Assembly: GCF_000407485.1 (NCBI RefSeq) | Contig: NZ_ASWD01000001.1 | Span: 868,001-932,000 of the forward strand | DNA length: 64,000 bases | Direction: 5' to 3' | DNA from: Enterococcus pallens ATCC BAA-351 | GTDB lineage: Bacteria > Bacillota > Bacilli > Lactobacillales > Enterococcaceae | Part shown: positions 2,875-7,506 of the stretch, piece by piece | Layout: each line of letters begins with the position of its first letter | Numbering within the stretch: the stretch's first letter is position 1 | Notes under the pieces: generated by a model | What the model was told of the DNA's origin: nothing | The model's input: the letters and a program-made list of their open reading frames with translations, nothing else | Databases searched by the model: none | Program-made: the position numbers and the translations under genes

Positions 2875-3092
2875 TTAGTCATTTTCTAAACGCTTCACCT
2901 GGTCAAGAGACAGTTTCGTAACTTTAGCTACAAAATCGGGAGACATGTTCTCTGTTAATAAATTTTGCGCAATTTCTTTCGCTTTTTTGTGCTCACCTAT
3001 TTTTGGCCTTGCTCTCTTCCTTTTTCTTTCGCCACTCGCTCAGCCGTTGCGATTACAGCATCTTGTATCATTCTTGCTTTGTTTATTTCCAT
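2875..3092 (-). pseudogene. Frameshifted duplicate of the Rpn C-terminal tail
   Basis: Reads MEINKARMIQDAVIATAERV and onward, nearly identical to the tail of the Rpn gene just upstream on the same strand. It lacks part of the EQGREQG repeat and has lost one A in an A-run: AAAATAG in the intact copy is AAATAG here, giving an immediate stop after GREQGQK. Restoring the base gives GEHKKAKEIAQNLLTENM and continues to a stop at 2875. A purine-rich GAGGGGA precedes its ATG, so it once could have been a stand-alone short tail protein. It is probably a relic of tail duplication at this locus. Confidence 0.8.
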
Positions 3093-3112: not shown

Positions 3113-3385
3113 TTAAGAATCTTTCGTATCTAGCGTTAATTCTTTTACTTCTTCAATTGTTAAATTCGTCGTTTTTGCTACACTATCGATTGGCATTCCT
3201 TCTATTAGTAAACTTTGCGCAATCTCTTTCGCTTTTTTATGTTCCCCTATTTTTTGGCCTTGCTCTCTTCCTAGTTCTATTCCTTGTTCTCTTCCTTGCT
3301 CAACCCCCTTTTCTTTCGCCACTCGTTCAGCTGTTGCGATTACAGCATCTTGTATCATTCTTGCTTTGTTTATTTCCATAATCAT
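3113..3385 (-). CDS. Putative intragenic Rpn short protein (RpnS-like)
   Basis: Inside the Rpn tail there is AAGGAGG followed eight bases later by ATG-ATT-ATG (start at 3385), giving a 90-residue protein MIMEINKARMIQDAV... that shares the frame and stop of the long gene. A consensus Shine-Dalgarno site in exactly this position is unlikely by chance. Short C-terminal products of rpn genes that bind and inhibit the long toxic nuclease have been described in E. coli. Here the short product would survive even though the nuclease is disrupted. Whether it is expressed is not shown, and the promoter would have to lie in the RIT element end or within the fragment. Confidence 0.6.
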   Translation of the reverse strand: MIMEINKARMIQDAVIATAERVAKEKGVEQGREQGIELGREQGQKIGEHKKAKEIAQSLLIEGMPIDSVAKTTNLTIEEVKELTLDTKDS

Positions 3386-3811
3386 GGCTAATTCCTCCTT
3401 GTTCAATGAATAGTAGTCGATTTTTGCTTTGGCTTCCTTAATGTACTCAGGTGCCGCTTCACTGGCTTCACCGGTTTTGAAAAATTGCTGCCAATGATAG
3501 GCTGCACTAGTGCAATCAATATTGGGATTTTTTAGATTAAAAAAGCACAGAATTATCAGCTCGTCCTTGTGAGCCGCCAGCAGAGGCTCAGCGGTATCCA
3601 TGTCTTTTAGTGCGAACCTGCGGATGGCAGGCTGAGTCTTGTCGAACAAATGAAAATCAACTACATTAATCCCGTAAGCCGGACGCAGTGCAGAATAGTT
3701 GTTTTTCTTAATGAAGTCTTTGACCTTCTGATCACCTAATGGATCGCGGTAGGCCTCTACTAAATATAAGAAAGATCGCTCGGTGAAAAAATCGTGGGGC
3801 TGAAGCTGCAT
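3113..3811 (-). pseudogene. Rpn-family (PD-(D/E)XK) nuclease, C-terminal part, cut off by RIT insertion
   Basis: The 3' portion of a recombination-promoting nuclease (Rpn/PDDEXK transposase-like) gene. Its first residues (MQLQPHDFFTERSFLYLVEA) are the natural continuation of the fragment at 7255-7506: joining ...VTIEM to QLQPHDFF... gives an in-frame protein of about 313 residues, the usual Rpn size. The C terminus carries the charged repeat GREQGIELGREQGQKIGEHK common in this family. The apparent start codon is the Met of the split I-E-M-Q motif, not a real start. The gene is broken by the mobile element at 3815-7260. An internal start at 3385 may still make a short tail protein. Confidence 0.9.
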
Positions 3812-3840
3812 CTCTTATGTAAAGCTTTGCATAAGAGATG
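3809..3840. repeat. Imperfect palindrome at the RIT outer left end
   Basis: CATCTCTTATG and CATAAGAGATG flank a central TAAAGCTTTG, forming a 32-bp palindrome broken only by one T/G pair. It includes the CATCTC hexamer and its complement, so the left end holds the target hexamer twice in opposite orientation. Its place outside the terminal repeat suggests a recombinase-binding or crossover region. Confidence 0.8.
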
Positions 3841-3867
3841 TTATGAAAAGTAAATAGTTATGTAAAG
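3835..3867 (+). repeat. RIT left terminal inverted repeat
   Basis: Starts GAGATGTTATGAAAAGTAAA and ends TAGTTATGTAAAG. It is identical, in reverse complement, to 7234-7266. It also contains GTAAAT/TTATGTAAAG sub-repeats that may be individual recombinase arm sites. Confidence 0.9.
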
Positions 3868-3922
3868 AACATCAAAATAGTGCCCGTAGATCAACTATCG
3901 TGATGCTCTTTACTTTACATAA

Positions 3923-4927
3923 CTAAAGTGAAGTTTTCAACCATTCAACCAATTCTGATTTTTTTTCGTCCGTATACTTTGTATCAGAATGAACTTCTGA
4001 ATAGTTTTTTTCCAATATCCTTCGCTTTATTTCTGGGTTTACCCTTGCATAAATTTCTGTCGTATTCACTGAGGCATGTCCTAATAAATCTCGGATATAA
4101 ATCAAATTAACCCCAGCTTCCAACAAATGCATGGCTTTACTATGCCTCAAACTATGGTTGGAAATTTTTTTGAGAAATAAGTGTGGATTCTCCTGTCGAG
4201 CTTTTTGGATATTTTTATCCAATATATACTGGACGCCTGCTCGGGTCAATTTCTTATTTACATTATTTCGAAAGACGTATTGTTCTGAAGAAATATTCAG
4301 ATTTTGATCTTTAAGGTATTCCCTCAGTAAGTCACGGACTTCTAATGAAAAAGGTATTTGACGATATTTAGCGCCTTTTCCAAGAACCTCCACTGAAGGT
4401 GGCGAAGAAAAGCGAATATTACATATTTGGGTCTCAATTATCTCTTGAACGCGACAGCCTGTATCATACATAAAGGATAATAACGCCTTTTCTCTGCGCC
4501 CCTTTTTAGTAGTATTATCAGGCATAGATAAAAGTATTTTTAACTCTTTTATTGTTAAATATGCTATTTGTTGAGTGATCTTTTTTTTGCTAGGAATGTC
4601 TGTTATTCTTTCCCATTGACTCAAAAAGGCAAACTCTTTTCGTTTTAAATAATTCGCAAAACTTTTTAAGCAACCTAAGCGTTGATTTCTTGTATTGATA
4701 CTATTTCCACGATTTTCTTCTAAATAGTTGAGGAACCTTTCAACGATTGCTTCATTAAAATCTTCTAGCTTTATGTTGTCAGAAGTAATTCTTTCGTGCG
4801 TTGCTAAATAGTCAAAAAAGAGCACGAAAGTGTCTCGATAAGATTCAATAGTCTTTTTTGAGCAACCTAAGAATTTAGTTAAATAACTTGAAAAATAATT
4901 CATCACATAAAATGAAAAGCCATGCAT
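3923..4927 (-). CDS. Tyrosine recombinase, third of the RIT trio
   Basis: 334 residues. An N-terminal core-binding (SAM-like) domain over about residues 10-110 precedes a catalytic domain with the conserved residues visible: Arg in YDTGCRVQEI, the box II H-x-x-R in NHSLRHSKAMHLLE, His in LLGHASVNTTEIY, and the nucleophilic Tyr in that last motif. It should cut and rejoin DNA at the element ends. Its start lies 1 bp beyond the stop of the middle recombinase, so the two are translationally linked. Catalytic residues are intact, suggesting an active element. Confidence 0.93.
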   Translation of the reverse strand: MHGFSFYVMNYFSSYLTKFLGCSKKTIESYRDTFVLFFDYLATHERITSDNIKLEDFNEAIVERFLNYLEENRGNSINTRNQRLGCLKSFANYLKRKEFAFLSQWERITDIPSKKKITQQIAYLTIKELKILLSMPDNTTKKGRREKALLSFMYDTGCRVQEIIETQICNIRFSSPPSVEVLGKGAKYRQIPFSLEVRDLLREYLKDQNLNISSEQYVFRNNVNKKLTRAGVQYILDKNIQKARQENPHLFLKKISNHSLRHSKAMHLLEAGVNLIYIRDLLGHASVNTTEIYARVNPEIKRRILEKNYSEVHSDTKYTDEKKSELVEWLKTSL

Positions 4928-4928
4928 G

Positions 4929-5912
4929 TCAATCTTCCTCTCCTTGATAGAACAAGTTACCGATATACTTTTTCACTTTTGTGCTCACATTTTTATGTTG
5001 CTGAACGGTTAGTCGTAAATAGTTTTCAGTTTGAGTCAGGTGTTCATGTCCTAAATAAACAGACAATAAAGGAAGTGCGGCATAAAGATCAATTCCTTCT
5101 TTTTCTGCCTTTTCAAGCGCATGAATGGCAAACGTATGACGTAAGTCATGAATTCGAGGTAAATTACCGCCCTGTCGATATGGAATGTAAGAGTCTACTA
5201 GTAGTTTCCTATATCTACGATATAGAGACCCTATAGAATAATGTTCGTCATAAGAATTCGGGTGATGAAAAATGAATTGGTTAGGTTCTAAGTGGGAACT
5301 GTAAGAGGTCATATAGCTTTGTAATTGTGCATGCACACTATCAGATAATGGAATGATTCGACTTATATGATTTTTAGAATCAATGATTTCAATAATCCCT
5401 TGATCCACTTTACAATGTTTTTTCCGTAAATGCAGTCCTTCGGAGCGACGCAGACCACAAGAGTAGTACAAAATGAATAATAAGGTAAACGCATCATTTG
5501 AATAATCCTTTTGATTGACGATCTTTTTTAGATTATCAAATAGACGGATAATCTCCTCGTGAGTAAAAATGTAAGGGACAAAAGAGCTTTTCAGGTATCT
5601 CGGTTCAAATGGATCAATATAAATATTTGGATAACCCATGTCAGTTAATATATGACAAATATCACAGAGTACTTTGATTCGCATGTTATGGTAGACTTTT
5701 CCTTCATTGTCAGTTTGTTCGCACCATTTCTCATACATTTCCTGTGTAATAATTGGTTTCGTTGGTTTAAACTGACTGAGAAATTTTGCAATTCGTCTAT
5801 AAAAACCAACATAGCAGTCGCCATAATCATAACCTATTCCTCGTTTGTATTGAATAACACGCTCAAATGGTTCGTTGTAAGGTTCGGCGAACTTATAATT
5901 ATAAAAAGACAT
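4929..5912 (-). CDS. Tyrosine recombinase, middle of the RIT trio
   Basis: 327 residues with all phage-integrase family signatures: Arg in YYSCGLRRSEGLHLR, H-x-x-R in RIHDLRHTFAIHALE, then YLGHEHLTQTENYLRL with the His and catalytic Tyr. The gene overlaps the end of the first recombinase by 14 bp and is followed after 1 bp by the third, so the trio is one translational unit. It probably acts with its neighbours as a heteromeric recombinase, as inferred for RIT elements; the division of labour is unknown. Confidence 0.93.
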   Translation of the reverse strand: MSFYNYKFAEPYNEPFERVIQYKRGIGYDYGDCYVGFYRRIAKFLSQFKPTKPIITQEMYEKWCEQTDNEGKVYHNMRIKVLCDICHILTDMGYPNIYIDPFEPRYLKSSFVPYIFTHEEIIRLFDNLKKIVNQKDYSNDAFTLLFILYYSCGLRRSEGLHLRKKHCKVDQGIIEIIDSKNHISRIIPLSDSVHAQLQSYMTSYSSHLEPNQFIFHHPNSYDEHYSIGSLYRRYRKLLVDSYIPYRQGGNLPRIHDLRHTFAIHALEKAEKEGIDLYAALPLLSVYLGHEHLTQTENYLRLTVQQHKNVSTKVKKYIGNLFYQGEED

Positions 5913-7122
5913 AAGGCACCTCCAAAGAAAATTCTCTTAATTTGGTTTCGTCAATGGTCAGATATTTCTCTGTCGATCTTATTTGCTTGTGTCCTAGAAC
6001 ATTAGAAATTGCGCTAATTGGAACTGACTCCTGCATCAAATTTGTCGCAAGTGAATGTCTCATGGCATGGGCCCCCGCATGCTTACCAGTAATATCAATT
6101 TCTGCTCTTAGAAAGACTCGTTTAACGATAGAAGAAATTCCACCAATAGAAAATTTGTGATAGGGAGCACAGCTAATTAAAAAAATATGATCCAAGTCCT
6201 CATTGACCGCTTTTCTGCTGTTCTTAATGTAATCTAACAAGGCAAATTTCATTTCGGGCAATAATGGAAGTGTCAGAGGTTCGCCGCTTTTCTTTTGCCT
6301 GATAAAGAAAACATCGTTTTCCCAATCAAGTTGCGCAAACGTCATCTCTAATAAATCAGATGCACGTATTCCAGTATAATAAAGAGTTGTAATAACTGCC
6401 ATTTCAAGTTTACCTTGAACAGAGTTTATATCGATAACATCAAATGCTTTTCTCATATCTTCTTTACTATAATAAGATAATATAGATAATCTCTGACTAG
6501 AATGGATAACTGGAAAGATAGAATACCCAGAAAACGGGCAAATTTGTTTATCAAACATCCAATCAATTGCTTGTCTAAGATTTCCACGATGTAAATCCTT
6601 AGTATTTGGAGAGCTTTCTAAACTATTGATGAATTGATGGACAAGTGTAGTAGATAGTTCTCTAAATGAATAGACCCGGTTTTTATCTAAAAAAAGAAGG
6701 AATTTTCCCATTGTCCATAACTTATTTTTTTTTGCTTGCTTCTGACAAGTGATTAAATTATCTACGAAATCTTTGTATTCTAAATAAAAATCTAAAAATG
6801 CAGTAGGGATATTTGTATAAGCCGTGTTGTGATGTCTTAATAAGTAATTTCCAGTGTGATAAAATTCAAACAGTAAAAGTACGGGGCGGCGAAGAGTAAA
6901 TTGTAATTGGCAGTTAGGGGCATCTAAATCAAAGTCGAAGGATTCTTTAAAAAAATTTCGAGCTTCATTAGAGTTCACCTTCTGAATATTTCTCTTAACA
7001 CAGAAAGTTTCAAAAGTATGACCAATCCATAAAAAATGATCCAGTGTATTGTCGGAATATCCATCGCCTTTCATTTTTTTGATAAGTTGATTCATAGTAG
7101 GAACAATCTGATCGGTATCCAT
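5899..7122 (-). CDS. Tyrosine recombinase, first of the RIT trio
   Basis: 407 residues from the ATG at 7122, chosen because AAAAGGAGG precedes it by a normal spacing; the open frame extends further upstream to 7233 without a convincing ribosome site. An unusually long N-terminal half (about 220 residues) precedes the catalytic domain with YYTGIRASDLLEMT, AHAMRHSLATNLM and VLGHKQIRSTEKYLTI, holding the Arg, His-x-x-Arg, His and Tyr residues. It is the promoter-proximal gene of the trio, reading inward from the right end of the element. Confidence 0.92.
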   Translation of the reverse strand: MDTDQIVPTMNQLIKKMKGDGYSDNTLDHFLWIGHTFETFCVKRNIQKVNSNEARNFFKESFDFDLDAPNCQLQFTLRRPVLLLFEFYHTGNYLLRHHNTAYTNIPTAFLDFYLEYKDFVDNLITCQKQAKKNKLWTMGKFLLFLDKNRVYSFRELSTTLVHQFINSLESSPNTKDLHRGNLRQAIDWMFDKQICPFSGYSIFPVIHSSQRLSILSYYSKEDMRKAFDVIDINSVQGKLEMAVITTLYYTGIRASDLLEMTFAQLDWENDVFFIRQKKSGEPLTLPLLPEMKFALLDYIKNSRKAVNEDLDHIFLISCAPYHKFSIGGISSIVKRVFLRAEIDITGKHAGAHAMRHSLATNLMQESVPISAISNVLGHKQIRSTEKYLTIDETKLREFSLEVPYVFL

Positions 7123-7233
7123 GTAAAAACCTCCTTTTCTTTTATTTGGATACAAATCAACTGTACCACCATCTTTCATTATGTGAAGAAAAAAAGTGAA
7201 TAGACATTGACAAATCAACGTCTGTTCACTCAA

Positions 7234-7266
7234 CTTTACATAACTATTTACTTTTCATAACATCTC
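7234..7266 (-). repeat. RIT right terminal inverted repeat
   Basis: Reverse complement of the 33-bp left repeat at 3835-3867. On the plus strand it begins CTTTACATAACTATTTAC and runs through TTTTCATAACATCTC into the Rpn 5' fragment. Confidence 0.9.
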
Positions 7267-7506
7267 GATCGTCACCTGTCGATTGTCTTCCGTCACGGCC
7301 AAAATATCTACTTCTGTATGCAACAATTCAGGATCTTCTTGAAAAGCTTTTTTATAACTGTCAATGTGATACGTTTCTCTAGGTGTGAGTGTCTTGAATT
7401 CTTTGCCTAAAATGTCTCGAACAAAAGCCTTCAAAATATGCGCGGAATCTTTGCTGGTGAACAACTTTTTGAACAACAGATCGTTGGTTGCTTTGTATGC
7501 TATCAT
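7255..7506 (-). pseudogene. Rpn-family nuclease, N-terminal part, cut by RIT insertion
   Basis: Codes for MIAYKATNDLLFKKLFTSKD... to EVDILAVTEDNRQVTIEM, then two element-derived codons and a stop. The FKKLF start and the D...(I)E-x-Q nuclease motif are typical of the Rpn/PD-(D/E)XK family. The insertion sits between Met and Gln of the I-E-M-Q motif, so this fragment retains the catalytic Asp and Glu but has lost the Gln and all downstream helices. It belongs with 3113-3811. Confidence 0.9.

Follow-up and report, generated by a model that had tools for sequence, protein, structure and literature searches.

The RIT element found in a 64,000-nucleotide stretch of Enterococcus pallens ATCC BAA-351 (contig NZ_ASWD01000001.1, positions 868,001 to 932,000; this whole stretch is called the window) appears to integrate site-specifically into the DNA encoding the catalytic motif Ile-Glu-Met-Gln (IEMQ) of Rpn nucleases, and would do so by way of a circular intermediate. 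We give this reading a probability of about 0.8. In the genome from which the window was taken, eight of nine rpn genes are cut at one and the same codon. It has been called difficult to understand why RITs need three recombinases (PMC3414803; this paper as well as PMC2864759, PMC5350276, PMC10214605 and PMC10327210 are cited throughout from excerpts). Beside it stands the question of how RITs choose their targets. Eight insertions at one codon in one genome expose the target, the element ends and the flow of the short junction sequences directly, and the pattern seen across other target families turns targeting into a testable rule.

The element in the window and the gene that it splits comprise the following features.

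3815-7260, genes on the minus strand: RIT element, ritA-ritB-ritC, splitting the rpn gene
5899..7122, minus strand: ritA, tyrosine recombinase, 407 aa, PF00589 match
4929..5912, minus strand: ritB, tyrosine recombinase, 327 aa, PF00589 match, aligned with 31 relatives
3923..4927, minus strand: ritC, tyrosine recombinase, 334 aa, XerD-like, PF00589 match
7234..7260, no strand: terminal inverted repeat, 27 bp, ritA end
3841..3867, no strand: terminal inverted repeat, 27 bp, ritC end
7261..7266, minus strand: junction hexamer h1, CATCTC (GAGATG, Glu-Met, on the rpn strand)
3809..3814, minus strand: junction hexamer h3, CATCTC
3835..3840, plus strand: internal hexamer h2, GAGATG, in inverted orientation with respect to h1 and h3
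3815..3834, no strand: near-perfect 20-bp palindrome TTATGTAAAGCTTTGCATAA, between h2 and h3, on one side only
7261..7506, minus strand: N-terminal part of rpn, through Ile-Glu-Met, TIGR01784 positions 1-71
3113..3811, minus strand: C-terminal part of rpn, 232 aa, open from the ATG of the hexamer, TIGR01784 positions 71-273

A first-pass annotation of the window had recognised a RIT element with three abutting tyrosine recombinases, 33-bp inverted ends and CATCTC at both junctions, and all of these were recovered. The three genes are adjacent in the order A-B-C, abutting or overlapping, and each product matches PF00589, while the 33-bp repeats (3835-3867 and 7234-7266) are 100% complementary. 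The ritA start was taken at the ATG at 7122, the open reading frame as listed beginning at the TTG at 7233, and the three recombinases were inspected only visually for the catalytic residues R/K/H-x-x-R/H/Y. Because the 33-bp repeat consists of the 27-bp repeat plus a hexamer, a third hexamer, h2, lies inside the element. We read h2 as the memory of an earlier target, and the 20-bp palindrome as the two inner arms of a circle joint.

RIT elements, first described in Cupriavidus metallidurans CH34, likewise have three adjacent tyrosine-recombinase genes. They are reported to be ~3.5 kb long with 28-34 bp inverted repeats, an overlapping palindrome and identical copies in one genome (PMC3414803; PMC10214605), all of which we find here, the last in the element's own genome. 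RitA with two core-binding domains and RitC with an extra C-terminal helix are further RIT features (PMC8138268). The loci retrieved with the RitB alignment share the same RIT ends, which places its RitB in the RitB group, and by every feature that was tested it is a RIT. The strand-biased circularizing integrative elements (SE) resemble it in their tyrosine recombinases, site specificity and 6-bp spacer, the target hexamer and the donor hexamer remaining at opposite ends, but they carry intA, tfp, intB and srap, and no 20-bp palindrome is described for them in the excerpts (PMC10214605); here there are three recombinases only. Tn554 and the GInts also combine several recombinase genes with site-specific insertion, but have an extra non-recombinase core gene, TnpC and GinD respectively (PMC10214605). 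No such gene (srap, tnpC or ginD) is found in the window RIT, whose three genes all match PF00589.

The element parts Met from Gln of the IEMQ motif. The N-terminal open reading frame of rpn (7255-7506, 83 aa) continues into the element and stops at 7255. Joining the two halves at one hexamer gives a single open frame of 313 residues in which IEMQ is restored, in agreement with the ~313-residue protein that had been predicted. Both halves match adjoining parts of TIGR01784, which identifies the gene as rpn, and its closest named relatives are from Enterococcus. In 102 aligned Rpn proteins, IEMQ took rank 2 among 250 four-residue windows. By reading, the joined frame holds the residues matching D63, E82 and Q84 of Escherichia coli RpnA; the Glu and the Gln are separated in the occupied gene. 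In RpnA the substitutions E82A and Q84K abolished activity (PMC5350276), so the earlier view that the split falls inside the catalytic motif holds. With the catalytic Glu parted from the Gln, the nuclease should be inactive; by extension each insertion should inactivate one Rpn, and most Rpn nucleases of this genome would be inactive. C-terminal products of Rpn are reported to block the full-length protein (PMC10327210), and the C-terminal half here keeps an open frame that starts at the hexamer's ATG, so an antitoxin-like remnant may be left. If this is true, a single mobile element would here have removed a family reported as a phage defence and toxin-antitoxin system (PMC10327210).

The first-pass annotation knew of one insertion and saw in it a clean view of RIT target choice; the genome strengthens that view considerably. 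In the assembly (5.44 Mb, 13 contigs) we found seven complete copies (L001-L007) and two pieces at the ends of contigs C4 and C13, which most simply are the two ends of one element beside two rpn halves and would make an eighth copy. A stretch of 3,420 bp is identical in six of the seven complete copies, and the seventh lacks one base. All seven copies and both pieces sit in rpn at the same codon. A TIGR01784 search returned nine rpn genes, eight cut at model position 69-71 and one whole (C4:98037-98906), which carries the site GAAATG. The pattern GARATGCARNTNCARNC occurs eight times in the genome, each time at an rpn site, and the ninth rpn site, in L003, deviates from it. The joined frames are intact for all seven complete copies (285-313 residues). 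The rpn gene interrupted by L005 (C1:796374-799799 and flanks) lacks its first residues, and thus was damaged independently of the RIT. The PMC3414803 list has at most three identical copies of a RIT, in contrast to eight here, with rpn as the target. A search for the RIT elsewhere in the host's family found RitB in only 1 of 105 genomes at E <= 1e-20. A plasmid source was likewise rejected: there was no near match, and the 538 plasmid records with RitB relatives were all below 60% identity.

A genus-mate (G006), in which no RitB was found at E <= 1e-20, has uninterrupted orthologues of the genes interrupted by L003, L001 and L007 (L197, L207 and L219, respectively). At all three loci the aligned blocks of G006 overlap by 6 bp at the junction, which matches the predicted join. 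The alignment extends past the gene on both sides for L003 and L007, and leaves it on the N-terminal side only for L001. Since G006 holds these uninterrupted orthologues, they show, as far as sequence comparison reaches, that separate, older rpn genes were hit. The comparison with empty sites in relatives that had been proposed therefore succeeded at three loci but gave nothing for the window's own: the genes flanking its rpn (up to 2776 and from 7702) align only 11 bp apart in G006 (C88:43420-45506), so that the whole rpn segment is absent there. We also looked for rpn genes cut at this codon in 20 genomes of the genus, own genome included; in the 19 others, among the matches listed, rpn is uncut at 70/71. 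In G007, one of these genomes, rpn is decayed (2-75 and 111-272) and reads through at the motif.

The side on which the palindrome lies is informative for the mechanism. It is the Rpn C-terminal side in all seven complete copies and in the C4 piece, even though the orientation of the element in L001-L003 is opposite to that in L004-L007 and the C4/C13 pieces (three versus four, or five with the pieces). A fixed palindrome side together with both orientations is consistent with a circular intermediate that offers two hexamers for crossover. According to the proposed route, the RIT would circularise to give a joint of two abutting core sites, each arm-hexamer-arm, the inner arms of which would form the 20-bp palindrome. 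A crossover between GARATG (Glu-Met) of rpn and either joint hexamer would follow, the overlap tolerating a mismatch, and the unused hexamer, h2, would be retained in the inserted element. If either hexamer may cross over, the side of the palindrome is fixed relative to the target while the orientation of the element is free. Among h1, h2 and h3 the hexamers differ at their third base (GAA or GAG), and h1 and h3 differ from each other in four of the seven complete copies. Such variation would follow from an overlap that accepts a mismatch and from the retention of the unused hexamer. At two of the three loci with an orthologue (L003 and L007), h1 and the hexamer of the orthologue are the same, in line with the SE scheme of PMC10214605. 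We infer from these arrangements the circle itself, the identity of the recombining hexamer and the roles of the three recombinases.

The ends of the element also recall the Xer/dif system, whose arms (CATAA-N6-TTATG) likewise flank a 6-bp centre. A search with that pattern gave a single dif-like site in the host (C5:109787-109807, L264), which ends in TTATGTAAACT, an arm that resembles the RIT arm TTATGTAAAG. However, arms of this kind are absent from the rpn target, and the RIT supplies its own recombinases. Inteins and homing introns occupy conserved active-site codons, which keeps their targets available, but they splice out and the host protein works, whereas the RIT breaks it.

To place the element among its relatives, we used 155 related loci (80 from genomes and 75 viral) fetched with 32 aligned RitB proteins. 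On the RitB tree the window RIT forms a long, isolated branch, and the closest RitB not of its own kind shows 42-43% identity. The palindrome TTATGnnnAGCTnnnCATAA was counted in 63 of the 80 genome loci, leaving out 17 (mostly short contigs ending at the element, and the two Legionella loci). Of the 63 loci, 39 have it where it would be expected (RitA end in 18, RitC end in 18, both ends in three), with two hits elsewhere and 0.25 expected in shuffles. Scanning 153 of the 155 loci gave 75 end-sets, 71 of them unique and 70 determined by the palindrome flank, some of these from elements with two palindromes. In many mapped end-sets h1 and h3 agree with each other and with the complement of h2, and per-base conservation of the TTATG part of the arm is at least 90% in the outer repeat arms and at least 96% in the palindrome. 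Five loci (L065, L077, L082, L112 and L159) have the palindrome at both ends, which the simple model leaves unexplained. In L041 a second, different palindrome lies immediately outside the element's own (8052 and 8088).

Recorded RIT insertion sites include radC as well as transposase genes of the IS66 or Tn6049 type (PMC3414803, PMC2864759). We searched 40 chosen flank pieces separately against Pfam, seven of which had no match, and found that within several target families different RITs meet the same Pfam position; the last three entries below are further targets.

IS66, PF03050: between positions 74 and 75, between HADE and T (L061, L070, L081)
IstB, PF01695: positions 103-104 (L079, L082, L085), at GK[TS]H in L079 and L085
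RadC, PF04002: between positions 68 and 70, before HNHPSG (L078; L083 likewise)
Amidoligase_2, PF12224: position 113 (L042, L116)
DUF4314: position 43 (L117, L132)
DUF3489: position 33 (L181, L185)
HATPase_c_4: positions 4-5 (L040, L044)
C5-methyltransferases: before LENV (L161) and in the WGNGVALP box (L111, L144)
Group II intron reverse transcriptase: between PQGG and IISP (L096)
ResIII protein: at TGK (L058)

Several of these motifs are catalytic, and Tn554 too uses radC. Other targets were HK97-gp10, ORF6N, YspA and DUF932, which have no known catalytic role. Two viral contigs whose names share a source number (L133 and L147) both carry a RIT in an Amidoligase_2 gene.

Three comparisons across these families point in the same direction, although near-copies inflate the figures in all three. 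Positions that vary among h1, h2 and h3 fall 10, 4 and 42 times at codon positions 1, 2 and 3, with 70 available at each (35 rows; P 2e-10). The 35 loci include the near-copies L116/L136/L147 and L122/L123; L058 was dropped as its h1 lies off the contig, and L082 was counted twice, once in a doubtful frame. With one row per target group, a hand tally using the first-numbered locus for each of 16 groups, 18 of 23 variable positions are at codon position 3 (P 1.3e-5). The palindrome side is constant in all ten target families with two or more elements, eight of which contain both orientations (27 hand-chosen elements, those with two palindromes left out). On the RitB tree (59 rows, 16 target labels) the labels require 19 changes versus 43.0 when shuffled, and none of 200 shuffles was as low; the labels of L127 and L128, where the DUF4314 and Amidoligase_2 genes adjoin, are possibly wrong. 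Six of the seven IstB rows form one RitB tree group that spans several phyla. On this evidence the target family is one that follows RitB phylogeny. Taken together, the constant target codons suggest that RITs find their targets via the DNA of conserved protein motifs. We consider it slightly better than an even bet that RITs are protein-family homing transposons, each clade reading the DNA of a conserved and often catalytic motif of one family, with wobble tolerance in the 6-bp overlap and a two-crossover palindromic joint, and that the Enterococcus lineage is an Rpn-specific silencer of nearly the whole family. If so, every RIT clade would amount to a natural integrase that serves a single protein motif. 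The motif rule, the two-hexamer joint, the constancy of the palindrome side and the hexamer memory were not found in a limited literature search that did not include the main RIT paper (Ricker et al. 2013), and the targeting rule looks new.

How far does the evidence separate this reading from others? A single rpn::RIT cassette might have arisen once and then multiplied together with its gene, whether through segmental duplication or through homologous recombination/gene conversion between rpn paralogues. The RIT copies are indeed nearly identical and four of the interrupted rpn genes (L004, L005, L006 and P0121) are 88-97% alike. Yet copying sits badly with an element that points both ways while its palindrome side is constant, with hexamers that differ between copies, and with interrupted rpn genes that are far more diverged than their RITs. 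The uninterrupted orthologues in G006 also make it hard to hold for L001, L003 and L007, and we regard this origin as quite improbable. That a RIT of low preference fell into rpn by chance, the pattern then reflecting survival in dispensable genes, is a scenario to which we give practically no credence: the target families do include many accessory or mobile genes, but survival explains neither the same codon in eight rpn genes nor the same Pfam position across hosts.

The annotation had further suggested that excision could switch the nuclease on, and in a broader form the RIT would be a reversible switch from which the host gains through precise excision turning Rpn off and on. The joined gene is in frame for all seven complete copies (the rpn start missing at L005) and, with GAA and GAG both encoding Glu, the protein would be restored even in the four copies whose h1 and h3 differ. 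Whichever hexamer remained, it would encode Glu-Met, so that at the protein level a reversal would be exact. A protein collection also contains one protein, its source not shown, that is 99.6% identical over 223 residues to the uninterrupted L007 gene product, as well as near-copies of uninterrupted L001, L003 and L004 at 95-97%. However, an uninterrupted allele may be ancestral and never have been hit, so these proteins and orthologues do not tell whether the RIT ever left. For the SE elements, moreover, no empty site is reported to remain (PMC10214605). The proposal that excision restores the nuclease thus found no backing, and we think a switch unlikely.

Several observations weigh against site-specific integration of the RIT through a circle as we propose it. 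Neither the circle nor movement has been observed; we infer movement from the multiple copies and the uninterrupted orthologues. The rpn target shows no arms resembling those of the element, one of the nine rpn genes carries the site and yet has no insertion, and the orthologue of the L001 gene (L207) lacks the h1 hexamer. Among the related loci, 24 of 63 have no palindrome at the level used. Specificity for rpn is, moreover, known from one genome, if eight-fold within it. A profile of 102 Rpn proteins, run without a positive control, gave one weak match in the 155 related loci (L096, E 0.027), in the C-terminal tail and far from the junction, and the idea that related RITs also occupy rpn was rejected. 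Several RIT copies per genome were not the habit elsewhere either: RitB matched once in 14 of 17 other genomes (L049 not included), twice in two and four times in one, so the burst in the own genome is not seen again. With no RIT in rpn among the related ones examined and no comparable burst in the 17 other genomes, Rpn specificity rests on this one genome.

Some further observations concern the rpn genes themselves. Many rpn genes of the genus (among L195-L221) have IECQ instead of IEMQ at the site and therefore lack GARATG. In the own genome, seven C-terminal-only rpn matches lie beside rpn genes and resemble spare copies of the variable Rpn tail.

L018: C1:66872-67210
L019: C1:67426-67680
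L020: C1:794755-794997
L021: C1:795210-795479
L022: C4:97683-97892
L023: C4:97150-97530
L024: C2:1036956-1037087

One further weak TIGR01784 tail match falls in another open reading frame of this genome. In the window, an orphan rpn C-terminal domain (2878-3039, minus strand), with 53 residues open after a stop, lies directly downstream of the interrupted rpn gene.

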